Assembly: GCA_947502405.1 (NCBI GenBank) | Contig: CANMZT010000002.1 | Coordinates: 124,001-188,000, forward strand | Source: an uncultured Algibacter sp. | GTDB taxonomy: Bacteria; Bacteroidota; Bacteroidia; Flavobacteriales; Flavobacteriaceae | DNA: 64,000 nt | Direction: 5' to 3' | Part shown: positions 30,856 through 60,579 of the stretch, piece by piece | Layout of the letters: every line of letters begins with the position of its first letter | How positions within the stretch are numbered: the stretch's first letter is position 1 | Notes under the pieces: model-generated | Told to the model about the DNA's origin: nothing | Seen by the model: the letters and a program-made list of their open reading frames with translations, nothing else | The model's database searches: none | Program-made: the position numbers and the translations under genes

Positions 30856-30900
30856 TGAAGTTAAGAAGACAACCTCTATTAACTATCCTGTTTAATCCTG
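30856..30900 (-). promoter_or_regulatory. Tandem CAGGA promoter of the 30-kb operon
   Basis: On the coding strand two CAGGAT sites (30895-30900 and 30885-30890) lie one helical turn apart. They are followed 21 nt later by TAACTTCA (30856-30863), which resembles the Bacteroidetes -7 box. The ATG of the 28911-30827 gene is 28 nt farther on. The same layout recurs upstream of six other genes in the window. Confidence 0.65.
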
Positions 30901-30913
30901 TTTTTTATAACAA

Positions 30914-30944
30914 AAAAGCCAGAGACAACATTGCTCTGGCTTTT
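30914..30944 (-). terminator. Rho-independent terminator of the lyase gene 30966-34187
   Basis: Arms AAAAGCCAGAG (30914-30924) and CTCTGGCTTTT (30934-30944) pair perfectly around a 9-nt loop. On the - strand the hairpin is followed by a T-tract. It lies 21 nt past the lyase stop codon and separates that gene from the operon promoter at 30856-30900. Confidence 0.88.
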
Positions 30945-30965
30945 CTATAATTGATTAGGAGTCTT

Positions 30966-33900
30966 TTATTTGATAACTAGTTTAGTGTGATATACTTTAT
31001 TATCATCTGCCAGTGCTTTTAATAAGTAGACACCTGAAGGTAAATTATGGCCTTGTTTGACCTCAATAAAACCGTTACTAGTTGCGTTTTGATATACGAC
31101 TTTACCTAACAGATCATATATTTTAACTTTAGCATTATTAATGTTTTGAAATGCAATAGTAAACTCATCCGAAGCTGGATTAGGATATACTTTTAAAGAT
31201 ATTCTTTTTAAATCATAATCATTCACACTCAATAAAGGGCCTCCTGTTCCAACAACTTGCCATTTACTTCTCTGGTCTCCTTCAGCAAAATCAGTTCCTT
31301 TAAGAAGGTTATAACAATTACCATCTGTGTGATGGTACAAAAATCTATTATTATTTTTAGCTTCAAAGCTAAAAGTATTATCTGATGAATTGTAATGTAC
31401 TGTCCATATTTTATCGGTATCTACTGCTGGAGATTCCTTAGTTGTACTTACTACCAGATAAGCTCCTGCAGTAAAACCTCCTCCTGTAGCACGTAAAATC
31501 CCATTATCTTCACTATCTATGTTATAATAATCTATACCGTCCACGGTTGATGCCGTAAATTTCCATTTTCTATCTTGGCTATCTCCTGTATCACGCATTA
31601 CCACAGGTTGGCTACTTGAAGGACCTGCTCCTAGATATTTTCCCGTAGCTACATTTATTAGCTTATAGATACCTTCGTCATCACCACCTCCCCCTTCGCC
31701 ATTAGTGATTTTCATTCGGTCAAAATTAAAACCTCCAACTTCGCCTACAACTTTAATTACCTGAACACCTTTTTGAAGTGTAATTGTTGTTTTGGTTCCC
31801 AAAAATCTTGTGAGGTTTGGAGTAGTTCTTAGCGTTATAGATTTAAGCGTTGTAGTGCCTTTCATTATCTTTAGTTTTTTTGAAGAACCAGTAGATGCGG
31901 CAAAAACTTCTAAATCATACACGCCATCCTCGGGTACGTCTATTGTGTATTCTGCAAAGTCATTAACATTCCAAGAGTTTAAGTAAAATATAGAATTACT
32001 CCATCGCGTTACATTTACACCACTTTTTGTAGTATAATGTTCAGCTTCAATTTCGGTAGGAATAATGTGTGTTTTGGGTTTAACAGTAATCGTTTTTGAA
32101 ATTTGGGTAGAAGTAAAGTAATCATTCCCAATGTCTGAAACAGTTACAGTTGCTGTACCTGCTCCTAAAGCATGCCTAACTTGGTCGCTCCATACAATAG
32201 CCACTTGATTATTGGGACATACAAACCTTAAATTTGCATCAGGATTATTACTACTTGCTACAAGACTAAAAGCTGGATCTCCTGAAGTAACTTCTGGAAT
32301 ATCCTGAAAAGTAATTACTTGTTGTCTTATAGGAACAGTATACTCCAAACTAACAATGGGAGCAGCATTATAAGTATCATCGCCAGGTTGCAAAGCATTT
32401 ATGGTAGTGGTTCCTGCACGTTTTACCTGTATTTTTCCATCAACAATTATCGCAACATCTGTATTGGTGCTTTCATACTGTACTGCCAAACCAGAACTAG
32501 CTGTAGCATTTAAAACTTGGTCTGGCTCACCCCAAGTATAACTATTTGGAGTTAAGCTAAACGTAATGGTTTGATTTGACTTTGATGCATCTGCATTAAC
32601 TACTAATGTTTGAGGTACATCCGCTGCGCTATCATACGTACCATCTCCAACTTGACTTGCAATAATATCACATGTGCCAACACCCATAATTCTCACTTTA
32701 TTTCCTTCAACAATACGAGCAATATTCGTATCTGAAGAGTTATAAGAAACGGGTAATCCCGAACTTGCTGCAGCATTTAATTCAAAATCTGCATCTCCTT
32801 CTGTCTTAGCCACCAAAGGATTAAAAGTTATAGTTTGTGGCGTATATTCTTCTTTTGTTAATTGAAACACAAAACAATGAATAGGGACTTCAGCACTGTT
32901 TTTATGCTCACTAAATACTACTGCAATAACACCATCTTCCATTATAGTTATACTCTTATTTGCAGTTATACCTGTATTTGTCCTAAAATCTTCTCTCCAA
33001 GTATAAGTTCCAGCTAATGCACTAGTAACCACAAAATTCCCTCCTGATAAGTTAAACTTATACATACGGTTACCATAAAATACGCCTAAGGATCCTTTAT
33101 TTCTATCTTCAGTAAACTCAGTTTCGTTTTGCTTTCTCAAATAGTTATAAGCATTTGTACCTTTAGGTTTTATATAGGTATAAATATCATTTTTAAGTGA
33201 AATTGCTAGCTGAGGTCCTCCAGCCCAACCTGCATTATCGGGCACACTACGTGGGTCTGCAATAAAAAATGGTGTATGATCTATAACTGGTAAATTATAA
33301 CTTTTTCCATCTAATGTTGTTGCTTTATCGTCCATGTGTTCGCCAAGTTCCATAACGTAAACGCCCTCATTTAAACGCGTAGGAGACTCAGCCCATCTTG
33401 GAGAGTACACATAATAAAATTTACCGTTGATGTACTTTGCACTTCCATAGCAAAAATTACGCTCTCCTTGAGTTACCTCTACACCTCTTCCCTGTATAAT
33501 TTTAACTTCATTAGACCATGTATTACCATCATAATATGTCATAATAATATCACCACCAACGGCAGACCCTAATCGCCTTTCAAAATACATTTCTCCTTGA
33601 TCGTTAGTGAATAAATCAGGATAGGTTACTCCAGTTACTTTTTTTCCTGGTATTAGGTAATCTTGTTGAGGCAGAAAATTGGCTGCAATAAAATCACTAT
33701 CAGGACCATAGGCAATATTCTTTTTAGACCTTATATAATTTAAGTCTTCATTGTGATGATCGAACATTAAATGCACTGTACCATCTATTGAACATATACC
33801 AACATTTGTTGTTAAATGTGTATCTCCTTTACCTCCTACTAAACTCATTTTTGCAGGAAGTGCTACATGCACCCAACTACCTTCTCCAATTTTTTTTCTA

Positions 33901-34187
33901 GAAATCATTAAAGTACGATCAGCCCAACCACCTCGATACCAAGTATAAAACACATAACCATTTGATACTTTCATACAATTTCCATGAGGATTTATACTTC
34001 TACCGTAATGAAATGGTTTTGGGTCGTCTGCTTTCCAAAAGTAAAGCGCTTCATCTGTTACTTGAGAACTTTCTAAAAAAGTAACTTGTGCAGTAAGCTT
34101 TTGAGGAAGTATATTAGCAACTAGAAATAGTACTAAAATAAATATGTATTTCTGAACGATGGCTGCTGTTAATTGAAGTGCTTTCAT
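30966..34187 (-). CDS. Multidomain beta-propeller lyase, PL24/PL25-type ulvan lyase, T9SS-secreted
   Basis: The best start is the ATG at 34187, giving 1073 residues with a signal peptide ending KLTAQ; an upstream in-frame ATG at 34328 would run through the promoter. Residues ~35-445 form a BNR_4-type beta-propeller with SINPHGNCMKVSNGY, GDTHLTTNVG (H124) and MFDHHNED (H145), the histidine pattern expected of PL24/PL25 ulvan lyases. Three Ig-like repeats follow (~448-530, 535-617, 620-703), then a CBM6-like sandwich (~708-828), a beta-trefoil (~838-980) shared with the PL28 lyases, and a T9SS sorting domain (~995-1073, ending KLVIK). It should cut ulvan by beta-elimination outside the cell. 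It has its own promoter and terminator. The choice between PL24 and PL25 cannot be made by eye. Confidence 0.82.
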   Translation of the reverse strand: MKALQLTAAIVQKYIFILVLFLVANILPQKLTAQVTFLESSQVTDEALYFWKADDPKPFHYGRSINPHGNCMKVSNGYVFYTWYRGGWADRTLMISRKKIGEGSWVHVALPAKMSLVGGKGDTHLTTNVGICSIDGTVHLMFDHHNEDLNYIRSKKNIAYGPDSDFIAANFLPQQDYLIPGKKVTGVTYPDLFTNDQGEMYFERRLGSAVGGDIIMTYYDGNTWSNEVKIIQGRGVEVTQGERNFCYGSAKYINGKFYYVYSPRWAESPTRLNEGVYVMELGEHMDDKATTLDGKSYNLPVIDHTPFFIADPRSVPDNAGWAGGPQLAISLKNDIYTYIKPKGTNAYNYLRKQNETEFTEDRNKGSLGVFYGNRMYKFNLSGGNFVVTSALAGTYTWREDFRTNTGITANKSITIMEDGVIAVVFSEHKNSAEVPIHCFVFQLTKEEYTPQTITFNPLVAKTEGDADFELNAAASSGLPVSYNSSDTNIARIVEGNKVRIMGVGTCDIIASQVGDGTYDSAADVPQTLVVNADASKSNQTITFSLTPNSYTWGEPDQVLNATASSGLAVQYESTNTDVAIIVDGKIQVKRAGTTTINALQPGDDTYNAAPIVSLEYTVPIRQQVITFQDIPEVTSGDPAFSLVASSNNPDANLRFVCPNNQVAIVWSDQVRHALGAGTATVTVSDIGNDYFTSTQISKTITVKPKTHIIPTEIEAEHYTTKSGVNVTRWSNSIFYLNSWNVNDFAEYTIDVPEDGVYDLEVFAASTGSSKKLKIMKGTTTLKSITLRTTPNLTRFLGTKTTITLQKGVQVIKVVGEVGGFNFDRMKITNGEGGGGDDEGIYKLINVATGKYLGAGPSSSQPVVMRDTGDSQDRKWKFTASTVDGIDYYNIDSEDNGILRATGGGFTAGAYLVVSTTKESPAVDTDKIWTVHYNSSDNTFSFEAKNNNRFLYHHTDGNCYNLLKGTDFAEGDQRSKWQVVGTGGPLLSVNDYDLKRISLKVYPNPASDEFTIAFQNINNAKVKIYDLLGKVVYQNATSNGFIEVKQGHNLPSGVYLLKALADDNKVYHTKLVIK

Positions 34188-34228: not shown

Positions 34229-34272
34229 AAAAGTCACACAGATAATAAAAAAAAGCATCCTGACCTATCCTG
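34229..34272 (-). promoter_or_regulatory. Tandem CAGGA promoter of the beta-propeller lyase
   Basis: On the coding strand CAGGATAGGTCAGGAT (34257-34272) has the 10-bp period, and TGACTTTT (34229-34236) lies 20 nt downstream at the place of a TAnnTTTG box. The chosen ATG at 34187 is 41 nt farther. This also argues against the upstream ATG at 34328, which would place the promoter inside the coding region. Confidence 0.65.
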
Positions 34273-34451: not shown

Positions 34452-36461
34452 TTATTTAATAACCAGCTTAGAATGGAATACTTTATTATCCTCTGTAAAA
34501 GCTTTTACTAAATATACACCTGTTTTAAAATTAGTACTTTCAACTACCAAATCACTTCCATTAGCCTCATTTTGATAAACGCGTTTTCCTAAAATGCTAT
34601 AAATTTCTAGACCCCTAACATTGGGTATGTTTTTAAATGTAACTGTAAATCTATTTTCTGCAGGGTTTGGGTATATTTTCACAGAAGGCACCTGAATTTC
34701 AGTACTATTAACACTTAAAGTCTGGCTTGTAGAGATAGCTTCCCATACACTTCTTGTGTCTGATTCTGGTGCTATGCTGTGTGTTACGCTACCATCAACA
34801 TTATGATACAAATACCTGCCAGCTGTTCTCGATTGAAATCTATAAGTGTCTTCTAAATCATTATATTCTATTGTCCATGTTTTATCGGTATCAGTCGATG
34901 GCGCCGTTACACCTGTACTAACAACACGATAAGCACCCCCAGAAAAATTAGCTCCAGGCGCACGCAATATACCAACAGTTTCACTATCGATATTAAAAAA
35001 CGATCCACTTTCAACGAAAGTCCAATGTGTGTTTTGAGGTTCACCTGAGTTGGTCATGGTAACTGGTGTAGCACTTGATCCTACAGCAGTTAAAAATTGA
35101 CCTGTATTTACATTTCTTAATCTGTAAACACCTTCAGAAGGTGCTGTACCATTATCAACAACTTCCTCTCTTTGATAGGTTGTATTTGCCCATCTCATTT
35201 GTGCTCTACCTTCTCTAACTCGATATACACCATATCTAATACCAGACTCTAATCCTCTTTCTGGGTCAGGGATTTCATAATTAAAAGGGTCTCCTCCAAT
35301 TACAGCATCACAATAATGTATTTTTTTTGTGGCATCGTTTGGATCTACTCTAAAACCTACCTCTAGCTCAAAGCTAACTTCTTCATTTTTATTTACCTGC
35401 TTTAAAAAAACAACTTCTCTACCAACACTTCCTTCTCCACCACGTTCCAAAATACGTTCAGCATAAATATCAAAAGCCACTTGCTTGCCTGCATTGATGC
35501 CTGTGCCATAAACAGGATGCGCTCTATATAGACAAATTGCAGGATCATTTGAGCCACCTCCACCGCTGTGTTTTCCTTTGGCCTGTGCTAAATAACTTCC
35601 GCTTGAATTAAAAGAACCAGTATCTCCTACTTCAAGAATTCTTAAAACTCCTGTAAATCTTGCATAACTTCCAACTCCTGTTTCTCCAGATCTAGGTAGA
35701 GAACGCTCTATCCTAGGTTGTAAGGTATTTGGTGCATCCCAGTGGTTAGACCCATCTGTAATATTGTAAACACCCCAAGTTTTACCATTGACATCACTTT
35801 CCGAGTAATCGGAGTAGCAACTTCTGTCATCAACAGTACCTACATTAACAGAGTTTGTTATATCAACGTTTCTAGTATTGTCGTTTTGGAATTCAGGTGA
35901 ACAACTTAAATCCGTACTCGTATCCTCATCGGGCGCTACTACTACAGGAGTTTGCACATAAGGAATGAGTTCCCAATTACTTCTGCCGTCCGTATCTGGC
36001 ACTACAACATGGGTAACAGTTCCATTAGGGTCATGGTACATGAACCTGCCAGAAGTTCTTGATTCAAATCTATATGTATCGTCCGTGGCGTTGTAACTTA
36101 TAGTCCAAGTTTTATCAGTATCAGCAGCTGGTGACGCTTTAGTGGTACTAACAACAACAAAAGGTCCTCCAGGACCACCATTACCTGGTGCACGCAAGAT
36201 TCCAGCACCTTCAACTTCATTATCTATATTATAAAAAGCCCCACTAACAACAAACGTCCAGTGCGTACTTTGGTCATCTTCATCTAAATTTGTCATTGAT
36301 ACAGGTGTTGCGCTTGCACCTGCATCTGTTAAAAATTGCCCTGTTTCTACATTTCTCAATCTGAAAATGTCATTAGAAGGAAGTACACCTTGAGCAGTTA
36401 TGCTAAATGAACATAACGCTAAAACGAAAAAGAAAATGGATTTAAGAGTATTTTTTTTCAT
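34452..36461 (-). CDS. PL28 ulvan lyase flanked by two beta-trefoil modules, T9SS-secreted
   Basis: A 669-residue protein with signal peptide (ends SITAQ, residue 24). Residues ~32-167 form a ricin-like beta-trefoil, ~178-430 the PL28 catalytic domain, ~445-577 a second beta-trefoil, and ~593-669 a T9SS sorting domain ending KLVIK. The PL28 core contains [11 protein letters not shown] and the GIRYGVYRV...MRWANTTY segment, which hold the candidate catalytic Lys and Tyr known for this family. It cleaves ulvan next to unsaturated uronic acid formation, outside the cell. The two trefoils presumably bind ulvan. It has its own CAGGA promoter and a downstream hairpin. The neighbour at 36620 has almost the same core but only one trefoil. 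Confidence 0.88.
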
Positions 36462-36499: not shown

Positions 36500-36543
36500 C
36501 AAATTTATTTAAACTTCACAAAACCCCATCCTGAACTATCCTG
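36500..36543 (-). promoter_or_regulatory. Tandem CAGGA promoter of PL28 gene 34452-36461
   Basis: Coding-strand CAGGATAGTTCAGGAT (36528-36543) is followed 20 nt later by TAAATTTG (36500-36507), a perfect TAnnTTTG -7 box. The ATG is at 36461. This is the clearest of the seven promoters because both elements are canonical. Confidence 0.75.
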
Positions 36544-36619: not shown

Positions 36620-38176
36620 TTATTTTATAATCAACTTAGAATGAAACACCTTTTTATCCGTAGAAAACACTTTAATTAAATAAACTCCAGCTTGAAACCC
36701 AGAGCTATCTACTTCTAAAACATTACTTGATGGTGTATTTTGATACACACGTTTACCTAGAATGCTATAAATTTGAATCTGCTTTACATTATTAATGTTT
36801 TGAAGGTTTATTGTGAATTTATTTTTTGCGGGATTTGGATATATTTTTATTGAAGTTGTTTTTAAACCTTTATCATCTGTACTTAAAGTTGTCCTTTCGA
36901 AAATCCATTTACTCCCTGCTTCTCTATATGGAATATGTGTAATAATATCATTATTTTCATCAACTAAATGATATAAAAAACTACCTCTATCTAGTGTCTC
37001 AAAACTATAGCTTCCATCTCCATTATGATACACTCTCCACATCTTATCAATGTCTGCTCTTGGAGGAGAAAAAAGCGTACTAATTAGTTCTGGTTCAGAA
37101 AAACCACCTTTAAATCTAATTATACCTCGCACCTTACTATCTATATTATAGTAAGTGCTGGATTCTTCTGTATCAACCTTTACAAATCGCCATTCTTTAT
37201 CTTCACCTACTCCCGAATCGCTTGGTACAAGTACAGCACCATCTGACATTAAATATTTACCTGTAGCTAAATTTCTTAATCTAACATAATTTTCTGAATT
37301 ATTATTGTTATTACTACCGTCATCAACAACTTCTTCTTTATTGTATGTTGTGTTAGCCCACCTTATTTGCCCTCTACCACCTTTAACTCTATATGCACCA
37401 TATCTAATACCAGATTGTATACCTCTTTCTGGACTTGGAATATTCCATTTAAAAGTTTCTCCACCTATAACGGCATCACAATAATGTACTTTTGTATTAC
37501 CAAAAATTGTTTCTTCCATTCTAAATCCTACCTCCAACTCAAAACTTGTTTCAGCATTTTTAGCAACATTTTTTAAAAAAACAACTTCCCTACCAGGGCC
37601 CGATCCACCACGTTCTAGAATACGCTCCGCATAAATATCAAATGACACTTGCTTGTCTGCATTTATTCCTGTACCGTAAACAGGATGAGCTCTATATAAA
37701 CAAATAGCAGGGTCTGGCGGACCACCACCACCTGTATGCTTTCCTTTAGCTTGGGCAATATAAGTTCCGTCTTGACCAAAACCACCAGCATCACCTACCT
37801 CTAAAATCCTAAATATTCCTGTAAATCTTGCAAAACTTCCAACACCTGATTCCTGAGATCTATCAAGTGAACGTTCAATCCTAGGCTGTAATCCATTTGT
37901 ATCTAAATGATTGGAACCATCGGTAATATTATAGACACCCCATGTTTTACCATTCACAACGCTTTCGCTATAATTTGAATAACAACTTCTATCATCAATA
38001 GCCCCCACATTATCAGACTTTGGTAAATCTGGTCCAAACCTATCAGGATTTCTGAATTCATCCGAACACTCTAGGCTAGAACTAGTATCTTCATCAGGTG
38101 CTGTTTGGGCTGTTAAAAAAAGTGAAAAGAGTGCAAAACTTAAAAATAATAAGGATCTAAAAGTATTTTTTTTCAT
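36620..38176 (-). CDS. PL28 ulvan lyase with one beta-trefoil module, T9SS-secreted
   Basis: A 518-residue protein with signal peptide (ends LFLTAQ, residue 24). Residues ~27-282 are the PL28 domain, with the long [19 protein letters not shown] and [13 protein letters not shown] segments nearly identical to the paralog at 34452. A poly-Asn linker (~289-294) leads to a beta-trefoil (~297-427), then a T9SS sorting domain (~441-518). Candidate catalytic residues are the Lys in QAKGKHTGG and the Tyr in RYGAYRVK. It should depolymerise ulvan extracellularly, giving 4,5-unsaturated ends for the GH105 enzyme encoded at 48026. It has its own CAGGA promoter; no terminator is visible between this gene and the next. 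Confidence 0.9.
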
Positions 38177-38216: not shown

Positions 38217-38260
38217 AAAACTCATTGAAACCTGAGTAAAATGCATCCTGACCTGTCCTG
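38217..38260 (-). promoter_or_regulatory. Tandem CAGGA promoter of PL28 gene 36620-38176
   Basis: Coding-strand CAGGACAGGTCAGGAT (38245-38260) keeps the 10-bp period. TGAGTTTT (38217-38224) follows after 20 nt at the -7 position. The ATG is at 38176. The stretch GxTTTTATG just downstream occupies the same place as in the 34229-34272 promoter. Confidence 0.65.
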
Positions 38261-38343: not shown

Positions 38344-41300
38344 TTAGTATACGAATTGCCTCAAAATCACAGGTCCTATTAACCCAGAAGCATCTAATTC
38401 TGTATCATTTTTTTTAGGCGGGTTGGTTGTCCAAGTTTTCTTTTGGTCTTTAGGTCTAGAGTTGTCGTAAATAAGCTGGTTGCGCCATGTATTAGTAACT
38501 TTAACCTTAAGAGTATTTTCGCCTTTTACGAGATATTCACTAATATCAAACTCAAAAGGTGGTGCCCATTTTACACCTACTTTTTTACCGTTGCACCACA
38601 ATTCTGCAATATTAGCTACCTTACCTAAATCTATAATTGAACCTACCCCAATATTTTCTAAGTTAATTGTTTTTGAATATGTAGTTGTTCCTGAATAATG
38701 TTGTATTGTCCTATTTTCGAATTGAGTTAACGATTTTAATTTTGAAACTTCAATGCCTTCAGGCGTTTCCCAACCTTCATTAAAAGATAATTGCCAATTG
38801 TTTTGTAGCGATTTTTCTTCAACAAATACATCTCTTTTTGTCTCTTTTCCATTCTGAAAAAACATATACTCACCAGCTATAGATGAAAAGAAATTATCAG
38901 CTTTCCATGACAATTTTGGGACAGCTTCGTCCCTATATTCTTTAGACCAACCTACTTTAGCATCCAATACTACTTCACCGTTGTGGATAACTTTTGAAGC
39001 CAAGGGTTGTTTATCGCTTTTTGTAAATACCACTATAGCACTTCCGTTTGATGCCAGCGATAATGCAACATTGGTTCTGTTTTCTGAAACTTTCCAAATT
39101 TTAGCATCTTGCTGTTCTCCTGTAAATGCATCCCAAATTTGAGGCGAAAAATCATTTACTCTAAAACTCAATGCTACATTTATAGGTTTATCTTCTTTTG
39201 ATGCTACAAAATAAACATGCGCGTCTTCTATTTCGCGGTGTATCCAATTAATATCTAAATCTTCTGGAATAATAATGTCAGGTGTTATTGTTTCGGCGCT
39301 TAAAACTTCATCTAAGGTTTTACCCCAATATACTTTACCTTTTCCAACCTGTTTTACGCCACTTTTGGTTATTCCCCATAACTTATCTGAAATGGTTTTA
39401 AGTGCTTTTAAGTCGGCTACATCATCCATCAAACTCGGTGAATCCACCGGTTTATTGCCTAAAATTACAGCTCCATTTTCAACCAATATTTCTAATTTCT
39501 CTAAAGTAGAAAGTAGCATCTTTTCAGAATCTCTAAGCATAATAACTTTGTAATCCCCTGCATTTTCAACATGGATTTTACCATCTTGCATGCTTAATTT
39601 ATCATGCAGAATTTCTGCATTCAAATAATCAAAACGATAGCCTTTCGGAAATTCATCTAAATCAAATGGTGGGCGCTCGTAGTGATCGCCATAATACCAA
39701 AGCACATCGGCTACATATTCGCCTTCTTGTAATACATATTGGTTTCTACTTAAATAATCCGTCCAATCCTTCATGTAAGGCCACCAAGTTTGTTGACGCA
39801 CCAAAGGAAAGCCAATATTTCCACCAAAACTAGACCCAGGGTATACATCGGTTTGTGGTGTATGCGAAAACGTGTGAAACACCAAATGGTTTACGCCTTT
39901 AGTAAAATTATAATCGATTAAATATTTTACTGAAAACGGATGCTCATTCCATTTAACACCTAACTGCGTACAGGCTTCTGCCGCTAGCATTGGTTTATTA
40001 TACAAATGTGTTGCAGACGCCGCATTATAAATAGGTTTCGCATATTCATTTTGATCAGACGGTGCTTTAGGATACCAAAATTCGGTCATAGGTATATCAC
40101 TAACGCCATAATAACGCATTGGGTCTACAGGTAATACTTCTCCTCCTGCACCTTCGGTGTATACCTCAGCACCCATATCGTGCGCTACAGTTGCAAAATG
40201 TTTGAAGAAGTTGTCAATAAACACCTCATCCATGGTGTGTCTCAAGTCTCTTAAAAACTTAGTAGTTACTTCTGTACTTTCAACTATATAGCCCATTGTT
40301 GCTGGCAAATAGGGCTTCATACTGTAACCTCTTCTATTTTCAAATTCAGCGAACATATCCTCAGAATTTATCGTCCAAGTAGGCACATGACTTTCCCAGC
40401 TATCGATTAATAAACCATGTAATTTTCCATCCCCAATAGGTCCGCCTGGTTTAATTAAATTGCCTATCATTCCGTTTCGCAAGTGGTTTTCTATGGCTAC
40501 TTTATCAAGCTTACTAGACTCCCAACCTGTGGCTTCAGGAACTGCTGGTTTGTTGGTTAATCGCATATTAACATGTCCAAAACGAACCACTGTCCAATTA
40601 CCCTCAGGAACTTCCCAAGTTAATTTACCTTCATCTGTCATTTTACCTGTTAGATTGATGATGGTATTGGACTTAATAATTGTATTTTCAGCATAATCAT
40701 ATTGTACATCTTTTTTAAGACGCCTTAAAACTTTAGCTGCTTTAGCTTCATGATTATGTAATTTTGGTTTTGAACTTAAACGAATAAATTCTGGGGCTAT
40801 AGAGTGCTCACCTTCAAAGGTAAATACAAATTCGTTTGATGTGGTTTCAGGAATTGCTAATGTAAGGTGCTTTCGCCTATCATTCCAATTGGCATCTGGT
40901 AACTTTAGAGTGGTAATTTCTGTTAACTTACCATTAATTTTAGCTTCCACCTTAAGTTTTACATCCACTACTGGATACTGCGTACCTACAATGATATGTC
41001 GAAGTTGAGGGAATTTTATAGTTCGTAAAGTAACAAAAGTATCAAAGGTTGTTTTTACCCATGTATTTTTATTATTTACTTTTGAAATGCCTTGTTTTCT
41101 ATATTTATTTAGAGGTTTATCAAGTCTTGTGGTTTTACGAGTAACTATAAGTTTTGAATTTGGATTAAAAATATCCTCCCATGGTACCAACGAATTGTTA
41201 GTTTCTATTTTGGTAGGATTAAAAGGCTCCAAATCATCGCCTTCTGGTGTTGGAAACGCTAATAATTGAATGTCTTTATAATCGTAATCTGGTGTGTGAT

Positions 41301-41817: not shown

Positions 41818-41849
41818 GGTATAGATTTTTAAAATTATTTGTTGAGATG

Positions 41850-44450: not shown

Positions 44451-44482
44451 TATATAAACTGCAACTTTAAAAGGTTATCCTC

Positions 44483-45574: not shown

Positions 45575-45579
45575 TACTT

Positions 45580-47810: not shown

Positions 47811-47906
47811 AAACTTGAATCTTTTATTTGTATTAATTTAAAAGATAAAATATTAATACACTAAGGTAAATTAAGGGTTTAGCAGTAATGTAAGCAAATA
47901 TGCACC

Positions 47907-48009: not shown

Positions 48010-48025
48010 TAAAAAATATATACTA

Positions 48026-49153
48026 TTAATCTAACTTTAAAATCTCACTCCCCGCCATTAAAAATGCTCCGGTACCAAAATTTTGCCAAGAACCTGCAGA
48101 TGCTGGCTCTGGAGATGCTCCTATATTTTGAACCCAACCTACGCGTCCATCGTCATGTTGGCATTTAGCAATGGCATTCCAAGCTTTTTTTACTGCTGGT
48201 GTATGCTTTTTATCTACTAAACCATTATTAATTCCCCATGCTAAAGCAAAAGTGTGAAAACCACTTCCGCTTACCTCTCCATGGTTATAAGACTCTGGAC
48301 ATAATAGACTTGTGCGCCATAAACCATCTTCTGGTTGAATTTCTAACATTTTTCCAGCCATTTCTTTAAATAGTTTCTCGTAAAACGGTCGGTGCTTATA
48401 GTCTTGTGGCATATCATCTAAAATTAAAGCTAAACCTGCAATAACCCATCCGTTTCCTCTAGACCAAAATACTTTTTTGCCATTTGGTTCTTTAGTATCT
48501 TTATTGTTGCCTTGCCATACAAAACGCATATCTCTAGCAAATAGTTGCTCTTCCTCATCATATAACTTATTATAGGTTTGCATATAAAATTTATGCATCT
48601 CTTCTAAGTATTTAGGTTGCTCTGTGTGTTTTGCATATAAATTTAACACTGGCGGTACCATAAATAAGGCATCACACCACCACCATAAAATATCTTTACC
48701 TTCTTTACCTACATTTTTACCCGACTTCCAGTTATTATCTTCAAATAAATGTGCATCTAAAAACTTTTTTGTTGGTTGTAAGTCTACAAAGTTTTTTCTC
48801 TTCTCGTTTCTATCAATGTATATGTAACTATATGAGATAGCCACATCATCAGCGTGATGTAAACGTTTATAGGTTTGCCAGTTATTCCAATAGGCTTGAT
48901 TTTTTAAGGCCGCCATATACATCATATTTTTGGTTGCCTTGTGTGCTCTGGCAACTCCTGTGTAATATGCTCCTGCTGTCCAATCGGTTGGTGCAAGCGC
49001 AAAAATTGGGTGCACTTCTTGCCATTCTAAAGCTTTAATCATAGATGCTTTTACTTTAGCCTTATCTATGGTTTGGGTTTCTGCTACTTTTTGAGCGGTT
49101 GAACAATTAAATAATAGCACAACTGCCAGAAGTGTTAAAAATGTTTTACGCAT
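48026..49153 (-). CDS. GH105 unsaturated glucuronyl hydrolase
   Basis: A 375-residue protein with a signal sequence (either a lipobox LLFNC or signal peptidase cleavage after STAQ). It is an (alpha/alpha)6 barrel with [25 protein letters not shown] (D161 is a candidate catalytic Asp) and [14 protein letters not shown], all typical of GH105. It removes the 4,5-unsaturated uronic acid left at the non-reducing end by the ulvan lyases, so it links lyase cleavage to the downstream glycosidases. The gene starts 6 nt after the stop of the GH3 gene and is clearly in its operon. Confidence 0.9.
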
Positions 49154-49159
49154 TATGTT

Positions 49160-51424: not shown

Positions 51425-51445
51425 TTTAGAGTTTTTAGTTGTTGT

Positions 51446-52805: not shown

Positions 52806-52840
52806 TAAAGATAAAATATGATACACTTAGACCCGTCCTG
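52806..52840 (-). promoter_or_regulatory. CAGGA promoter of the GH43-GH3-GH105 operon
   Basis: Coding-strand AGTACAGGACGGGTCTAAG has CAGGAC at 52835-52840. TATCTTTA (52806-52813), close to TAnnTTTG, follows after 21 nt. The ATG is 17 nt beyond the box, so the leader would be short. The distal half-site is degenerate, as in the promoter at 45540. Confidence 0.55.
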
Positions 52841-52902
52841 TACTGTTATGGTGATTTAGTTATTTTTTAACCTAAGTGTAATATTGAAGTTTGAATAAAA
52901 GC

Positions 52903-54753
52903 CTATTTCCGTTGTAATAAAATAACCCAGTCTTTTTCTGGTGTATTTGGTGGTGCTCCCAATTCTACAATGCCTGACGATTTTACAGAAGTTACTGAAC
53001 CTTCTTGCAAGCTTCCGCCGTTTCGTGGGTCGTACCATTTTACTTTAAACGTCTGATTTGCAACTTCTAAGTTCAACTTAATATTACCTGAATTTGCTTC
53101 AGCGTAAATAGCATAAACCTCTCCTTCTTTTGCAAAACAATACGCTATATCTACAGAAGAAATTAAATCGTTACAAGGTTCCATTTCCCAAAACGGAATG
53201 TAATTATTAAAAAATTGAAGTGCATACTGGTTTTGATCCCAAAACAAATCTCGACTTCTAAAATCTTGACAGGTTAAATCTGAGTTTGGGCTGGCATAAC
53301 CAAAATACCATTCCACGCCAAAACCACCAGCCATAAGGGTGCCCCACATGGCTCTACCTCTGGCATAATTATGTTCTGGATCTTCGTCGTCTGGCAATAA
53401 AGCAATGTTGGCTTTACCTGGTTCGTCAACAGCTAATGCCCACTTTTTTCCTGTAGCATTAGATTTTTCTCGCCATTTTAAAACTCTATCATGAACATCA
53501 TTGAAATCTGGATGCCTTAATTGTAAGGATGCGCCTGTTAGTGGCGATTGGTCGCCAATTAATTCTGCATAGCGATCGTCTTTATTTGGAAACGTATGTA
53601 TCACTAAATGACTGTTATAAGCATCTAATTTAGACGCATAATCTGCCACTTTTTTAACCTCTTCAATAGGTTGATTATTCTCTTCTCCCAAATTCCAATT
53701 CATGGATAAGTGATGACCAAATCGTGCAATAAGTTCTCTGTAATACAGTTTACCTTCTACACCAAACACACCTTTATCCATGAGATGATCGGTTTCTGTT
53801 TCATGGGTTTTAAAATGAAGAAACATACCTTTGGTTTCGGCATATTCAAAAACACGTTCCCATTGGTCTAATTTTGAAACATCAAATCGTGTTTTATGAA
53901 ACATGGTTTCCCATGCCTCCTTATTTTTCTTGGTACTTGCATAAGCCTCGTAATCTCCAATATGCACTTTTAAAAGGTGTGGAAAAATATTCCTATCATC
54001 TCCATCAACGTTAAAAGTTAAAAACGAAAACACATTTAGTCCTTCACTAGCCAAATAATTAATGGCTCCTAAAAGATTTTTCCCTTTTGAATTTTGCCAT
54101 AAATATGGGGTTGCGGTTTCTTCAAAATCTTTAGCATGTGGCTCCCATGCTTTTTGAAATCCGAGAGCATTAGTGGATACATCAAAATCTGTATATGCTA
54201 ATAGATTTTCAGGTGCATCCACCCCTAGTTTAATGAAGTATTTTTGGGTTTCAGCAAATTTCAAATATGATTCTCCCAAATACTGTAGTTTTCCCTTTGC
54301 TCTGTTATCTATTCCTATCTTATCAGAATCAGTGACAATAAAGCTTCCCTCTTGACCATCCATAAAACCTGCACTTGAAGCATTTTCCACATCGTCTGCA
54401 ACCGCAATATTATCGCCCTTTTTAAATGAAGTTGAATAAGTCCATTCTCCTGTAGTATTGGGCGTAAAACGTACTTGCCAAATATTACCTGACGCACTAC
54501 TTGTTTCAGCTGAATTACCATCGGTGGCATAAAACCCTGGGATTTTAAAAGTTTCATCCCCATTTTTAAAGGTTACATCTAGACGGTAATTTAGAAATGG
54601 ATTATTTTCATCCATTTCACTTGTTTTTGGCCCTTCAAAATTTAGTGCAATTCTGTGCCATTTTTTTAATTCGCCTTCTATTCTAACGTCTTCATATTTT
54701 TTACATGCATTTAAAAGACACAACGAAAAAATGAGGTATACGAATTTATGCAT
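52903..54753 (-). CDS. DUF5060-type putative glycoside hydrolase lipoprotein
   Basis: A 616-residue lipoprotein (LLNAC, cysteine at residue 17). An N-terminal DUF5060-like sandwich (HRIALNFEGP, FTPNTTGEWTYS) precedes a TIM-barrel-like region with NLGEENN (E357 or E358 as candidate acid/base) and VDEPGKAN (E444 as candidate nucleophile). A small C-terminal sandwich ends KDWVILLQ. I do not know a characterised activity for this family in ulvan breakdown. It is 3 nt downstream of a beta-propeller lyase gene and surely co-transcribed with it, which suggests that it processes that lyase's products. Confidence 0.65.
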   Translation of the reverse strand: MHKFVYLIFSLCLLNACKKYEDVRIEGELKKWHRIALNFEGPKTSEMDENNPFLNYRLDVTFKNGDETFKIPGFYATDGNSAETSSASGNIWQVRFTPNTTGEWTYSTSFKKGDNIAVADDVENASSAGFMDGQEGSFIVTDSDKIGIDNRAKGKLQYLGESYLKFAETQKYFIKLGVDAPENLLAYTDFDVSTNALGFQKAWEPHAKDFEETATPYLWQNSKGKNLLGAINYLASEGLNVFSFLTFNVDGDDRNIFPHLLKVHIGDYEAYASTKKNKEAWETMFHKTRFDVSKLDQWERVFEYAETKGMFLHFKTHETETDHLMDKGVFGVEGKLYYRELIARFGHHLSMNWNLGEENNQPIEEVKKVADYASKLDAYNSHLVIHTFPNKDDRYAELIGDQSPLTGASLQLRHPDFNDVHDRVLKWREKSNATGKKWALAVDEPGKANIALLPDDEDPEHNYARGRAMWGTLMAGGFGVEWYFGYASPNSDLTCQDFRSRDLFWDQNQYALQFFNNYIPFWEMEPCNDLISSVDIAYCFAKEGEVYAIYAEANSGNIKLNLEVANQTFKVKWYDPRNGGSLQEGSVTSVKSSGIVELGAPPNTPEKDWVILLQRK

Positions 54754-54756
54754 TGG

Positions 54757-56853
54757 TTATTTTATTACAATACGCTTTACTAAGGTATTATTTTGATTTG
54801 TTAGTTGTAGAAAATACACACCTTGACTAAACTTTGAAAAATCAACTTGGTTTTGTACAACTTTACCTTTATCTAAAATTTGTCCTTGTATATTAACTAA
54901 AGAATATTCAAGGTTTTGAACATTAGATTGAATGTTAAAAACACCTTCACTTGGGTTGGGGTATACTAATACCTTTTGGCTTGTAAAATCATTTGTACTT
55001 AAAGATGATTTTAATTCAAATTGAATTTTATCAGGCTCACTTGATAAAGATCTTCTTTGAGTAATTCTAACAGTATTTTCACCTTGATTTAGCGTAATAT
55101 CTGGAATTCTCGTTTCTAGATATATATTCCAATCAAATGTTCTTGTAATTAGAACATCGTCGTACAGAGTTCCATTAATTTCAATATCCATTATGGAGTC
55201 ATCCCTATTCCTATTTGCAGCTAAAAGAATAAAATCATAGGTACCAGCTGTATCAACTTGAAATTTATGTTCTATAAATTGATTTGAAGAAAAAGCATCT
55301 ATATATTCTCCTCCAGAAGCTGTAGTATTTGTACCGATATTAATATCATTTGATGCTGTGGTATAGTCTTCTGCTTCTAATGATATTAAAACTGGGGCAT
55401 CAACTTCTGATAATGTAAACTCTTGAAAGTATAATGGACGCTTATCTCCCACTCCTGGTGTATTGTTTCCAGTATTTTCCATGAGATAAACATATAGTTT
55501 ATCTCCAGTAACAAATGCATCAAAATGAGCAAAATTGATAGATTCTGTTCCGGTGTAAACTATTTTCCAATCATTTTGTCCTTCTAATGTGGTTTTTATA
55601 TTCACTTTTCCCCCTAAAAGCTCCACCATGAATACATGGTTTTTATAACTGTAAACTTCTCCACGAACTTGTGGATTAGGAATTAAGCCACCTGCAGCAC
55701 TAGAAAAATTGGCCTCTGAAGCAAGCTTGTAATAATGTACGTTTATATTATCTACTCTGGTTATAAAATGTATGGCGCCATTTTCAGTTACTGTCCATGA
55801 TGGATCTGCAGATGTTCTTGGTAGTGTTGCTGTACCATGATCATCACCTGGTTGTGCGATTTGAACTGGATCTACATTTGGATTAATATTATTTCGTATT
55901 GGGAGTGAAATAGGATTATCGTTAACATCAAACCACTGACTAGATTGATTTTTTGGAATGTCATTTGTATACGCATAGTATAAACCACTATTTATTAGAT
56001 AACCATTACTTGTACTACTTTCTTTATTTGTAGCATAGCGGATAGAAAAACCAGAATAAAATTTACCGTTTAGAAAACGTTCTCCACCATACATGTTATT
56101 TCTGTTTGGCAATGGCAATGTACCATCATGAAACAACCAGTTATTAGACCATCCAGTACCGTTGTAATGTGCCATAAATATATCTCCATTTCCAGAACCA
56201 CCTTTTCTATATCTAGTAACCAAACTTCCATCATCAGCTCGATGAATCATAGGATAGGTCATGCGCTCGTAATTTTGTCCAGATTTTAAAAAGTTCCGTT
56301 TCGGCTCAAAAATGTCTAGAGTAAATTCATTATCAGGCACAAAAGCCATTTCTTTTTTTGAAACAGAGTAGTTAAAGAATACCGTTGGTAAGGCACTTTT
56401 ACTGTATGCGTGTAAATCGTATATAATATGAATTGTATTATCTATTGTACTTACACCAATTGCAGCTGTATTATGAGAATCTCCCCTAATACCTGTGCCG
56501 TTAAAAAGCTCTCCAGATTGTCCAACATGTTTATGAGGAAACTCAATAGTAACCCAATCAGAATTAGGTACATTGAGATTTTTTCTTGATAGCATTAGAT
56601 TGCGGGTATCCATACCCCCTTTATACCAAGTTACAAAGGCATAACCATTTATTACATCTACACAGTCTCCATGAGGCGATATTCTTTGCGCAAATCTATA
56701 GTTTACATTCCTAGTTCCTGCAAAAAACAAACCACCTTCACCATCACCGGACACTCTAGTTGAACTATCTAAAGTTGAGACTAATTCTTTTTGAGCATTT
56801 AAAGAAAATAATAGTAATGTTAGGCATAACGATATGTAATACTTCTTCTTCAT
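54757..56853 (-). CDS. Beta-propeller lyase (PL24/PL25-type) with CBM6-like module, T9SS-secreted
   Basis: A 698-residue protein with signal peptide (ends LFSLNAQ, residue 20). Residues ~25-490 form a BNR_4-type beta-propeller with RISPHGDCVDVINGY, RGDSHNTAAIGVS and YDLHAYSK, where the two histidines keep the 21-residue spacing seen in the lyase at 30966. A CBM6-like sandwich (~500-620) and a T9SS sorting domain (~630-698, ending RIVIK) follow. It has no trefoil. It should be an extracellular ulvan lyase, or a lyase for a related uronic acid polymer. It starts a two-gene unit with the DUF5060-type protein. Its promoter is not clear. Confidence 0.78.
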   Translation of the reverse strand: MKKKYYISLCLTLLLFSLNAQKELVSTLDSSTRVSGDGEGGLFFAGTRNVNYRFAQRISPHGDCVDVINGYAFVTWYKGGMDTRNLMLSRKNLNVPNSDWVTIEFPHKHVGQSGELFNGTGIRGDSHNTAAIGVSTIDNTIHIIYDLHAYSKSALPTVFFNYSVSKKEMAFVPDNEFTLDIFEPKRNFLKSGQNYERMTYPMIHRADDGSLVTRYRKGGSGNGDIFMAHYNGTGWSNNWLFHDGTLPLPNRNNMYGGERFLNGKFYSGFSIRYATNKESSTSNGYLINSGLYYAYTNDIPKNQSSQWFDVNDNPISLPIRNNINPNVDPVQIAQPGDDHGTATLPRTSADPSWTVTENGAIHFITRVDNINVHYYKLASEANFSSAAGGLIPNPQVRGEVYSYKNHVFMVELLGGKVNIKTTLEGQNDWKIVYTGTESINFAHFDAFVTGDKLYVYLMENTGNNTPGVGDKRPLYFQEFTLSEVDAPVLISLEAEDYTTASNDINIGTNTTASGGEYIDAFSSNQFIEHKFQVDTAGTYDFILLAANRNRDDSIMDIEINGTLYDDVLITRTFDWNIYLETRIPDITLNQGENTVRITQRRSLSSEPDKIQFELKSSLSTNDFTSQKVLVYPNPSEGVFNIQSNVQNLEYSLVNIQGQILDKGKVVQNQVDFSKFSQGVYFLQLTNQNNTLVKRIVIK

Positions 56854-56900
56854 CTTTATTTTTTTTTACTTAAGTCCTCTCGTTCTAGCTTAACTTACAA

Positions 56901-56937
56901 AAAAAGCCAGTAAAGTCTAGAGTTTTACTGGCTTTTT
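56901..56937. terminator. Terminator of the sulfatase-GH78 gene
   Basis: Arms AAAAAGCCAGTAAA (56901-56914) and TTTACTGGCTTTTT (56924-56937) form a perfect 14-bp hairpin with a 9-nt loop and a T-tract on the - strand side. It lies 11 nt past the stop codon of the gene at 56948 and isolates it from the lyase gene downstream. Confidence 0.92.
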
Positions 56938-56947
56938 AAATTTATTA

Positions 56948-59900
56948 TTAAAATGAATTTATTTTAAGTTGAATAGTATGCTTACCTGGGGCGAGCCTTA
57001 TAGACTCAAATGCCGAAGGTACTTTTTCTCCATTATGTATTAAGTCTTTTCCATCTAATCCATTTAAAGAAAACTCAGCAACCATATTTCCTGGGATTTC
57101 AATCTCGTAAGTCTGCAATCTCGCGCCGTTGTATTTATATTTTGCTTTAATAGTTCCTCTTACTGTTGGTACTTCAATTTCACTAGATTTCAGTTTACTC
57201 ATTTGTGGCTTAATCATGGCTACACCAAACCCAGCTGTTTTAGGTTTAATACCCCATAAACCACGAGGAATTACATTTGCAGGTACAGCTCCCCAGGCAT
57301 GATTCCAATCTAGGTTTATCTTGTAATCGTAATCCCAAGCTTCTAACGTTATTGTTGAGCCCTCTCTAATCATATTGTACCAACTTCTTTTGGCTTTGCT
57401 GGCTAATAACTCTAAAGCATAATCAGCTTCACCAGCGTTATATAATCCATCCATCAAAAATTGTGCGCCATATACACTACAAGCCATTCCGCGAGATTTT
57501 ACGTAATCTACAACAGACTGATAATGCTCTTGAGGCACTAGCCCAAATGCTAAAGGCATCATATTGGCATGCAAAGATGCGTGATCTGTACCTATACCAT
57601 CCACATAAACACCTCTTTCTTTATCGAACATTTGTTCATTAACTGATTTTTTTGCTTTTATCGCTCTATATTCAAAATCTAAAGCCTCTTCTGTCTTTCC
57701 TAAAATTTTGGCAAATTCAGCCATAATTTTCATGTTTTCGTAAAAGAAAGAATTAATAACTGTGCTGTATGGCTTAAACACAAATCCGTCGCGCTCTCCT
57801 TTAGTTTTACTACCAGCAAAGTTTTTACCTGGCCAATCCACAATATCAGTTAGTGGTTTTTTATAGCCTTCAGGGAAACCTAATTTTTTCATAAATTCTG
57901 CATCCACTTTTGTAGAAGTGATTAAACCATCTTCATTTGATAATTCATATAAAGATTTATGCTTTAAAGGCTCATAATAACGCTCAACTAATTCAGTATT
58001 GCCTGTGTACATGTAATCCGCATAAATTAGCAACGGCACATGCTGTTGCCATTCAGTAGGCCATGTTGGGTTTTTCATAAAATACTCAATAGTTCTTCTA
58101 GCCATTGCGTATTCTCTATCTGTAGTGTAATGACTTAGCTGATTTAAGTATGCATCGGCTTCATAAGGGATACGTTCTCTATCACCATCAACATATAAAC
58201 CATTAAATGTTGTTGCTTTTATAGAGTACTTACACAAATCCCAAACTTGATTTAAAATATCATTATTACTCTTAAAGCTACTTGCATTTTCATCCCAATA
58301 GGTGTGAAATGCTAATTGAGTAAAATCATTTGCAGAAAGCTCTTGTTGAGCACCTTCAACTTCTGCATATCTAAAAGGTACTAATGGAGGAAAACCATCT
58401 GGTAATGGAACAGCTTTATTAGGCCTAGTGTTTCTCTCATCGGTTTGTACTTGAATTTGATATTTTGTTTTACCAGGTTTTACATCAACTTTTATTTCTT
58501 GATAGCGAATATTACTTCTTTTAGGTGGTGTTCTGTTTACATTCCCTTTATCATCTATCATTTCACCAACTCTCACAGTAAGTGTATGAGGTGTTTTTGC
58601 CTCATAAGTAAAGTCCATAGTAGCAAAAGCTGCTTTTCCAAAATCTATAAAATAGAAACCATCTCTCTTTTCAAAACTTGTAGGCTTAACTTTAGTCGTT
58701 ATAAATTTATTTTCTGTTGAAATAATATAACTATCACTTTTACCAGTCGTGAATTTTTGAGCATCTGAGTAATCAACAAGTCTATTTTCTTGCTCCCAAA
58801 TTCTAACTTTCCAATAGTAGGTTTTTCCGATTTCTAGAGTATTTCCGCCATACTCAACATCTGTTGATTGTGAAGAAGCTACTCTACCACTATCCCAAAC
58901 ATCGCCGTTGTTATTATCAATATCTTTTTTATTTGATGCTACTAAAATTTGGTAAGCGCCTTGAAATTTAGAACCTAAAGGCACTGTCCAGCCAAATTCT
59001 GGTTTTAAATCGAATATTTCAACATCTGTAGATGGTTCTCTTATTAGTTCAACAGTTAAATCTGTTGGTGCTGCTCTAAACTCATTGCTATTTTTCTTAA
59101 TTAATTCATCAAGTTTTGCTCTAAGTTTATTGGCTACTTCTTTATATTTCTTCTTTCCAATTAAGTTTTTAACCTCTTTTGGATCTTTCTTTAGGTTATA
59201 AAGTTCTTCAATACTTTTATCGTTTACGTATCTAAAATATTTCCATTCTTCAGTACGAACACCCTCACTTGGTGGAATATTTTCAAAATCCCAGATGTGC
59301 TCAATTAAGATGGTATCTCTAGCAATAGTATTGGTTTCTTGTTTTACAATTGGTAATAAACTTTTTCCTTGCCAAGTTTCTGGAGCTTCAACTCCTGCAA
59401 TATCAGCAATGGTTTGTGGCACATCAATATTAAGTACCATATCCTTTACATCTTGGTGCTTATTCACTCGTGGGTCAAAAACTATTAATGGCACACGAAT
59501 AGAGTTCTCATACATTAACCATTTACCTGCAAACTGGCGTTCTCCTAAGAAATAACCATTATCTCCCATTAAAATGATAACCGTATTTTTATCTAGTCCT
59601 TTTTGTGCTAGCTTTTCACGAATTTTCTTAATTTCTAAATCCACACCAGAAATCATTCTGTAATACCCTTTTAAGCTATGTTGATATTTCTCTGGAGTAT
59701 CATAACGCCATGTCCAACGTAATCTATTAAACCCGTCTCTTACAATTTTTGGTTGCGCTAAAAAGTATTTATCATCACCTAATTCTGGTTCTGGTATTGT
59801 AGTATCCTCTAGCATTTCATCCATTCCAGCTTGCCAGAAATATTGTTTTGGAGCACCGTCGTGTGCATGTGGTGCACTAAAACTTAATGATAAACAAAAT

Positions 59901-60475
59901 GGTTCTTCATTAGATGCATTCTTATCAATAAAATCTAATGCTTTTTGCCCTGTATATCGTGTTAAATGTACAGTATCATTGTTTATAGTTTTATAATAAT
60001 AACCTCTTCTGTCTTTAAAACGATTATTTCTATCATAAGATTCGTATTCATCAAATTGCTTATCTAAATCATTATAACGCACACCATATTTACCAAAAAA
60101 ACCAGTATAATATCCGTTATTTTTAAGCAATGTTGGATATGAATTCACCATATATTCTTCACGTACATTCCCTGTTTGAAAGTTAAAGTTGTGCGCTCTT
60201 TCATGTAACCCAGTAAAAAGACTTGCTCTACTGGCAGCACAAATTGGCGTAGTAACAATAGCCGTGTGGAAATAGGTCCCAGATTGCGCTAAATTATCCA
60301 TTGTTGGAGTTTCAACAAACTCGTTACCGGCATAACCAATGGCATCAAAGCGTTGATCATCTGTTAAAATAAAAATAATGTTTGGCTTTTCTGAATTATC
60401 TTTTTGTTGAGCGTAAGCAAAATTTAAACTGTACAAACCAGATAATAGAATTAATAAAAAACTGTTTTTAAGCAT
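56948..60475 (-). CDS. Bifunctional S1 sulfatase - GH78 alpha-L-rhamnosidase
   Basis: An 1175-residue secreted protein (signal peptide ends NFAYAQ, residue 23). Residues ~30-465 are an S1 sulfatase with metal residues D39-D40, formylglycine motif C79-A-A-S-R83 and G304-D-N306. Residues ~468-1175 are a GH78 enzyme: an Ig-like module ([10 protein letters not shown]), a sandwich ([10 protein letters not shown]), and a barrel with [12 protein letters not shown] from D763, where E767 is a candidate acid. One polypeptide can thus desulfate and remove rhamnose. A bimodular enzyme of this order is known from the Formosa agariphila ulvan locus. It has its own CAGGA promoter and terminator. The acid motif differs from the DCPxRE form of the other GH78 proteins. 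Confidence 0.9.
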
Positions 60476-60534
60476 TTTAGTCTACGATTTTATAGAATTA
60501 ATTAAGGGCATATTAGCAGCAGCCCCATAGAGGT

Positions 60535-60579
60535 TAAAAGTAAAATTTAATAGTTCAAATTGTATCCTGCTCTGTCCTG
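60535..60579 (-). promoter_or_regulatory. Tandem CAGGA promoter of the sulfatase-GH78 gene
   Basis: Coding-strand CAGGACAGAGCAGGAT (60564-60579) has the 10-bp period, with TACTTTTA (60535-60542) 21 nt downstream. The ATG at 60475 is 59 nt farther, the longest leader among the seven. Confidence 0.6.

Follow-up and report, generated by a model that had tools for sequence, protein, structure and literature searches.

The closest described systems include regulators of the GntR family. In a 64,000-nucleotide stretch of the genome of an uncultured Algibacter sp. (the window; G000:C2:124001-188000 in a genome, G000, of 3.79 Mb), seven transcription units, ulvan lyase genes among them, are headed by a tandem CAGGA element that is probably the operator of a rhamnose-linked, GntR-type activator. 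AraR of Bacillus subtilis has the same build as this candidate, PF00392 joined to a LacI/periplasmic-binding-type domain, governs a sugar catabolic regulon, and its DNA-binding domain is among the sequence matches of the GntR protein described below; the sensor domain of AraR is LacI-type, and that of NanR of Escherichia coli is FadR-type. AraR represses and is described as binding the palindrome At(T/A)tGTaCGTAcaa(A/T)T (PMC4218819), in contrast to the direct repeat placed as a promoter element here. NanR, described as a GntR-family protein that binds close direct repeats, (GGTATA)3, cooperatively (PMC8012715), is also a repressor, and its repeats lie less than half a helix turn apart rather than one full turn as here. 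Members of the MocR subfamily (GabR, PdxR, TauR) are described as activators, many of them with direct-repeat operators (PMC5320631), but they have an aminotransferase-like sensor and repeats spaced by two or three helical turns, where the present system has a LacI-type sensor and a single turn. Precedents for direct-repeat binding in the GntR family include NanR, FarR, NagQ and the MocR types.

Among regulators of Bacteroidota, the hybrid two-component systems (HTCS) of Bacteroides polysaccharide utilization loci (PULs) also exert control through tandem direct-repeat sites, but they have a periplasmic sensor, an AraC-type DNA-binding domain and sites described as averaging 21 bp apart (PMC3878776). 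RhaR of Bacteroides thetaiotaomicron regulates a rhamnose operon in the same phylum but belongs to the AraC family, and its reconstructed regulon is given as a single operon (PMC3878776). The alginate GntR protein of Zobellia is likewise a regulator of algal-polysaccharide genes in Flavobacteriaceae, and the title of its description presents it as a repressor of alginate genes. No description of the present motif or regulon was found among the matches listed in the open-licence literature, a scope outside which subscription papers mostly fall. Little is known beyond a few cases of how marine flavobacteria sense polysaccharides and switch the corresponding loci. The present analysis provides a named candidate regulator, an operator and a promoter geometry for ulvan, a main green-algal polysaccharide; it makes regulon members predictable from DNA alone, and has in this way led to the rhamnose operon and to an unlinked gene for a PL28 lyase; and it opens a direct test of whether released sugar or oligosaccharides are the cue. 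A GntR-dependent promoter could also serve as an inducible tool in flavobacteria.

The CAGGA element and its promoter geometry

The sequence-only reading of the window had placed seven CAGGA sites on the coding strand, five of them as tandem pairs with a 10-bp period, each followed after 20-21 nt by a TAnnTTTG-like box, and had proposed that CAGGA takes the place of the -33 TTTG. All seven sites are present where it put them on the minus strand, which also carries all 29 open reading frames (ORFs) of at least 150 aa in the window, and the quoted boxes are present at all seven. Exact CAGGAY-N4-CAGGAT occurs 5 times in the window versus 0.01 expected from 100 dinucleotide shuffles, and the composite site, CAGGAY-N4-CAGGAY-N20/21-TAnnTT (tandem plus -7 box), 3 times versus 0.00; at the remaining two exact tandem sites the box begins with TG, not TA. 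The two sites read as single proved to be degenerate tandem sites, in which TA and CAGGAY come after the distal halves CATGTAAG and CATAACAG. Lone CAGGA pentamers are common in the window, and a lone pentamer is without meaning. The box follows the proximal hexamer after 20 nt at 34257, 36528 and 38245 and after 21 nt at 30885, 45569, 52835 and 60564; at 34257 and 38245 the fit improves slightly if the box is moved one base, to 21 nt.

An alignment of 64 sites from ten genomes (the G000 stretches and 20-kb stretches round site clusters in nine others) defines the element as a direct repeat, CAGKAYAS-NN-CAGGAYRS, with a period of 10 bp and a half-site, CAGKAYAS, longer than CAGGA. These sites were picked via the tandem motif, ignoring the -7 box; the count excludes sites that lay too close to the end of a stretch, one hit within coding sequence and, for three triple arrays, their distal units. 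Downstream of the repeat, 61 of the 64 sites have A at position +38, and all have T at position +42. At least five of the six -7-box positions match at exactly 21 nt past the proximal hexamer in 56/64 sites, versus 0-8 of 64 at the other spacings tested, from 5 to 44. TAnnTTTG is given as the sigmaA -7 consensus of Flavobacterium psychrophilum (PMC9723704), and a Bacteroidetes sigmaA -7 element of this kind is found at 56/64 sites and at 69/73 promoters of the rhamnose gene rhaD. The -33 TTG of the same sigma factor is found at 0/64 sites, the slot being filled by the repeat, in keeping with the replacement that had been proposed. The geometry is that of a class II activator, with the repeat in place of the -35/-33 element at a fixed phase, apart from a few sites spaced at 20 and not 21 nt. 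Nothing is clearly conserved upstream of the repeat in the 64-site alignment, which holds neither a second, HTCS-like half-site 21 bp upstream nor the palindromic GT...AC operator typical of the GntR family, but a direct repeat. The rhaD-type sites hold a near-palindrome, GTAYAGTAC (e.g. L166, L157, L104), which recalls the GTACGTAC core of AraR operators; most PUL sites are without it. Triple arrays of half-sites at the 10-bp period were seen at L075 ~9526-9551, L082 ~2859-2884 and L084 ~18726-18751.

A chance origin of the element is ruled out by the shuffles and by reversed-pattern controls. The bare tandem pattern gave 311 matches in 127 of the 299 family genomes (control, 21 in 18) and was too loose across genomes: coding sequence and, in G143, an unrelated repeat match it as well. 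The counts below are therefore of the composite pattern. The G143 repeat (L026; G143:C1:3004572) consists of clustered CAGGATGTG copies in both orientations, unlike a promoter array. CAGGAY composites number 142 in 51/299 family genomes against 1 for the reversed control, and the CAGTAY-type variant, counted separately and totalled by hand from the listing, 90 in 49/299 against 0; an equal frequency of the motif before unrelated genes, which the sequence-only reading had named as grounds for rejecting it, is thus not seen. In the phylum sample of 158 genomes, CAGGAY composites were found in 8, G000 among them (control 1), and three genomes outside the family (L255-L257) have 5, 5 and 4 sites. 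These three (G329, G440, G305) belong to another family of the class and carry 4-5 CAGGAY composites each, partly clustered in G305.

A GntR-type candidate regulator

Sequence comparison points to a GntR-type protein, with a winged-helix domain and a LacI-type sensor, as the most probable regulator; it is encoded at C2:29969-32130, outside the window as the sequence-only reading had expected. One such protein, GntR2 (348 aa), carries PF00392 and PF13377 (Peripla_BP_3). PF00392, the N-terminal winged-helix GntR domain, scores above cut-off in each of the four GntR proteins of the window genome that were scanned, and PF13377 in GntR2, GntR3 and GntR4, while it was not reported for GntR1. The GntR2 model places the winged-helix domain on a LacI/RbsR-type sensor (mean predicted local distance difference test, pLDDT, 90.6), and its Foldseek matches include LacI, RbsR and CcpA with TM-scores of ~0.5-0.6 over the query. 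The closest GntR2 orthologues among the matches listed are from Hyunsoonleella and Algibacter (Flavobacteriaceae).

GntR2 has matches at E<=1e-30 in 131/299 family genomes. In 60 of these the match lies at E<1e-100, the cut taken for the GntR2 clade and set after the table was seen; in the others it is no stronger than 4e-88. Counting both types, composite sites occur in 57/60 genomes with the clade versus 5/239 without it. The three misses (G075, G190, G256) have near-consensus sites upstream of rhaD, e.g. CGGTACAG-TA-CAGGACAG; two of the five extras (G020, G064) have a 41-44% identical GntR beside rhaD, and the other three (G077, G235, G249) have one site each with a poor fit to the full consensus. 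This co-occurrence reflects more than the presence of rhamnose metabolism: rhaD is found in 70/299 genomes, and among these sites are present in 56/59 with the clade versus 3/11 without. In same-genus contrasts, found by hand in 7 genera, 6/7 clade-positive and 0/7 clade-negative members have sites, G271 counting as positive on a single poor site and G075 being the miss. Genomes with a listed GntR hold 140 CAGGAY composites, and 6 of these are found no more than 500 bp from the GntR gene, where random placement in 4 Mb would give 0.06. G265 combines 7 CAGGAY and 1 CAGTAY composites with just one GntR match at E<=1e-30, so one protein may serve both site types.

The rhaD locus was compared in the best 80 of 121 titled GntR2 orthologues, each as a 7-kb stretch and several from metagenome-assembled genomes. 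Among these loci, which were found through gntR, the rhaD start falls within the stretch at 73, and at all 73 gntR is divergent from rhaD. Of these, 69/73 carry CAGGAY followed at 21 nt by a -7 box, and the four exceptions (L203, L204, L216, L219) are all labelled Flavobacterium and have rhaD 31-42 bp behind another ORF. A stricter pattern that includes the tandem distal half is found at 56/73; most rhaD sites have CRGTAY as their distal half. In the clade-negative G272 the rhaD gene has no site and starts 109 bp behind the end of an AraC-family gene (PF12833).

Variation of the half-site was also seen alongside variation of the protein. In G108 and G222 the rhaD-side GntR is 45% and 40% identical, the half-site is CAGAAC at the same 21-nt spacing, and the recognition helix is SRDTVVK or SRDTIVR rather than SRDTVEK; in G020 and G064, which are equally distant, the glutamate is kept (SRDTVEK or SRDTIEK, as in the GntR2 clade) and the half-site is CAGGA. 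A search for CAGAAY composites in 39 genomes matched the gntR/rhaD locus of G108 and G222, gave one match each in G265, G110 and G045, and gave none in G247 and G037, whose helix equals that of G222; because this test was mixed, the covariation of helix and operator stays a lead.

Proposed mechanism

We consider it likely that the CAGGA element serves as operator in a rhamnose-linked regulon governed by a GntR/LacI-type, direct-repeat, class II-like activator with the rhaD operon as core target. A cytoplasmic GntR protein with a LacI/ribose-binding-type sugar sensor would bind CAGKAYAS-NN-CAGGAYRS, and the repeats, one turn apart on one face and sometimes in three units, would seat head-to-tail protein in contact with RNA polymerase. 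The repeat occupies the -33 slot in near-fixed phase to the box, the proximal half lying 21 nt (sometimes 20) before the sigmaA -7 box, which argues that the bound protein stands in for the absent -33 contact and would activate in the manner of a class II activator. The core target would be the divergent rhaD rhamnose operon, and in ulvan degraders the same operator would have spread to SusC genes and to those for lyases, sulfatases and rhamnosidases. The putative effector is rhamnose or an early catabolite, because of the rhaD linkage and the rhamnosidases among the targets, including a GH106 gene in G127. Since the operator is shared by the ulvan genes, rhamnose freed from ulvan would induce further ulvan degradation, and the comparison suggests that released rhamnose may switch on the whole degradation programme.

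More tentatively, a cytoplasmic, monosaccharide-sensing GntR/LacI-hybrid activator on one-turn repeats might be a general second route for Bacteroidota polysaccharide loci beside HTCS, SusR and extracytoplasmic function (ECF) sigma factors, with half-site and recognition helix shifted together by clade (CAGGA with SRDTVEK/SRDTIEK, CAGAA with SRDTVVK/SRDTIVR) as a readable code; we regard this as possible, though on balance doubtful.

Alternative explanations

Several points weigh against a GntR activator. The GntR genes lie ~92 kb before the window in the window genome, several genomes carry 2-5 GntR matches, and HTCS presence is enriched in site-bearing genomes (17/51 vs 4/248). Because the genomes are related, Fisher tests give p-values that are too low; the cut at E<1e-100 was made with the table in view; and another regulator gained and lost along with GntR may also be compatible with the co-occurrence. 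Under the patterns used, no site is seen at the orthologue of the unit 6 gene in G044, of the unit 5 lyase in G169, or of the GH43 gene in G265 and G153 (units as listed below). GntR proteins usually bind palindromes and often repress, and, going by the title of Dudek et al. 2020, a GntR protein is reportedly a repressor of alginate catabolism in Zobellia.

A repressor role for the same GntR protein, released by rhamnose as in AraR, is in our view unlikely; the operator does overlap the promoter and repressors are common in the family, yet a repressor would have no need of a fixed phase, which is exactly 21 nt at 56/64 sites, and would be expected to leave a -33 element in place, whereas TTG occurs in 0/64 and the repeat fills the slot. 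Binding by a different regulator, another AraC, LacI or other protein travelling with the rhamnose genes, has a low probability. The co-occurrence was tested for GntR, HTCS and the rhaD enzyme only, and the window genome has 18 HTH_18 matches, 17 of them over the cut-off, so there is room for such a protein; but among rhaD-positive genomes the site tracks the GntR clade, the rhaD gene of G272 stands behind an AraC-family gene without a site, and gntR is divergent from rhaD at every one of the 73 loci, which were found through gntR.

The HTCS regulators of the contig (HTCS1, C2:59284-63336; HTCS2, C2:211561-215577), which the sequence-only reading had listed among possible binders, were our first choice by location, HTCS being common PUL regulators and HTCS1 lying directly upstream of a CAGGA-headed GH2 gene, and the enrichment given above speaks for them as well. 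They were dropped because the HTCS1/2 clade (relatives of at least 42% identity, two best candidates scored per genome) was not found in 34/51 CAGGAY-composite genomes, including G265, G070, G127 and G045; likewise the motif-rich G265, G070, G045, G127 and G132 have no match at 1e-150 among the two candidates scored in each. The tandem sites of Bacteroides HTCS, moreover, are described as 21 bp apart on average (PMC3878776), in contrast to 10 bp here with no second copy upstream, and we hold it very unlikely that these proteins bind the site. The sequence-only reading had offered a common activator or an alternative sigma factor, and one shared element does head the ulvan units. That an ECF or other alternative sigma factor reads CAGGA as a -35 element is hardly credible: the near-fixed spacing to the start region would suit it, but the alternative is rejected because the downstream box is the housekeeping sigmaA TAnnTTTG, and the tandem or triple 10-bp repeats are a better fit to a protein dimer or oligomer.

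Sites and transcription units in the window

The sites, boxes and units of the window are as follows, all on the minus strand; functions are from Pfam, and the operons of units 1-3 are predicted from gene spacing.

60564..60579 (-): tandem site CAGGACAG-AG-CAGGATAC, 5' of the sulfatase/GH78 fusion gene
60535..60542 (-): -7-like box TACTTTTA, 21 nt past the proximal hexamer
52903..60475 (-): unit 1, sulfatase + GH78 (56948-60475), BNR_4/type IX secretion system (T9SS) protein (54757-56853), DUF5060 protein (52903-54753)
52835..52850 (-): degenerate tandem site CATAACAG-TA-CAGGACGG, 5' of unit 2
52806..52813 (-): -7-like box TATCTTTA, 21 nt
46047..52789 (-): unit 2, GH43, GH3, GH88, sulfatase
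45569..45584 (-): degenerate tandem site CATGTAAG-TA-CAGGATAG, 5' of unit 3
45540..45547 (-): -7-like box TACCTTGA, 21 nt
38344..45507 (-): unit 3, T9SS-secreted protein (44620-45507), GH2 (41850-44450), GH106 rhamnosidase (38344-41817)
38245..38260 (-): tandem site CAGGACAG-GT-CAGGATGC, 5' of unit 4
38217..38224 (-): -7-like box TGAGTTTT, 20 nt (or GAGTTTTA at 21)
36620..38176 (-): unit 4, PL28 ulvan lyase
36528..36543 (-): tandem site CAGGATAG-TT-CAGGATGG, 5' of unit 5
36500..36507 (-): -7 box TAAATTTG, 20 nt
34452..36461 (-): unit 5, PL28 ulvan lyase with beta-trefoil domains
34257..34272 (-): tandem site CAGGATAG-GT-CAGGATGC, 5' of unit 6
34229..34236 (-): -7-like box TGACTTTT, 20 nt (or GACTTTTA at 21)
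30966..34187 (-): unit 6, BNR_4 protein with ulvan-lyase beta-trefoil domain and T9SS tail, ATG at 34187
30885..30900 (-): tandem site CAGGATTA-AA-CAGGATAG, 5' of unit 7
30856..30863 (-): -7-like box TAACTTCA, 21 nt
28911..30827 (-): unit 7, 638-aa protein, no Pfam or NCBIfam match

The element is conserved at many orthologous promoters. A tandem site stands at the 5' end of the sulfatase/GH78 orthologue in 7/7 genomes within the stretches (G265, G044, G145, G153, G002, G163, G110). The GH43 gene behind the 52835 site has an orthologue with a full tandem, CAGGATAG-AA-CAGGACGC, in G163 and one with a degenerate site, CCGCACAG-TA-CAGGACAG, in G002. In G265 the degenerate 45569 site is kept as CATGTAAG-TA-CAGGACAC, and the orthologue behind the 38245 site carries CAGGGTAG-TT-CAGGATGG. 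Tandem sites are also found at the orthologues of the unit 5 lyase in G265, G044 and G163 and of the unit 6 gene in G145, G265 and G169. The unit 7 protein is 79-87% identical in five related genomes, and the tandem site lies ahead of its gene in 5/5 of the other genomes with a match and so in all six; this protein is possibly an undescribed ulvan enzyme.

Three further features of the window were observed. At 56948-60475 (-) one reading frame fuses a sulfatase with a GH78-type alpha-L-rhamnosidase. A perfect stem, AAAAGCCAGAG...CTCTGGCTTTT, that leads into a run of T was seen by eye at 30911-30944 (-), shortly upstream of the 30885 site, and looks like a terminator separating units 6 and 7. 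Between the genes at 26118-28454 and 28911-30827, on a plus strand without an ORF of 150 aa, lies the relic of a C-terminal AraC-type DNA-binding domain (28769-28879, +), 29 aa of which align to HTCS1 at 41% with two in-frame stops; it was considered as the regulator and rejected as too short.

Sites elsewhere in the window genome

Exact sites number 9 in the whole G000 genome, while the reversed pattern gives 0. Four of the 9 lie outside the window and are independent of the sequence-only reading; these all have a TAnnTTTR-like box 20-21 nt downstream. With at most one mismatch there are 25 sites versus 5 in the control; 16/25 are on contig C2, and eight one-mismatch sites lie elsewhere. The exact sites outside the window and selected one-mismatch sites are the following.

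C1:120349: exact site, 45 bp before a PL28 ulvan lyase gene on another contig, the sole exact match off C2
C2:28738: exact site, before a fructose-1,6-bisphosphatase gene followed by two GntR genes
C2:28573: one mismatch (CAGTATAGTACAGGAT), opposite strand to C2:28738, before rhaD
C2:59231: exact site, before a GH2 gene
C2:190224: exact site, before a 3-keto-disaccharide hydrolase gene
C2:201816: one mismatch, before a SusC-type receptor gene
C2:226263: one mismatch, before a short-chain dehydrogenase gene adjoining a fourth GntR gene

After rhaD come rhamnose isomerase-like and rhamnulokinase-like genes, both below the NCBIfam cut-offs. The earlier view that the element governs ulvan lyases and enzymes holds in that the ulvan units are headed by it, but the set also takes in rhaD, fructose-bisphosphatase and SusC genes; the regulon is rhamnose-centred and wider than the ulvan lyases. 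The two GntR genes at L011 9969-12130 (9969-11015 and 11084-12130) are 68% identical and stand in tandem behind the CAGGA-headed fructose-bisphosphatase gene, an arrangement that suggests positive autoregulation.

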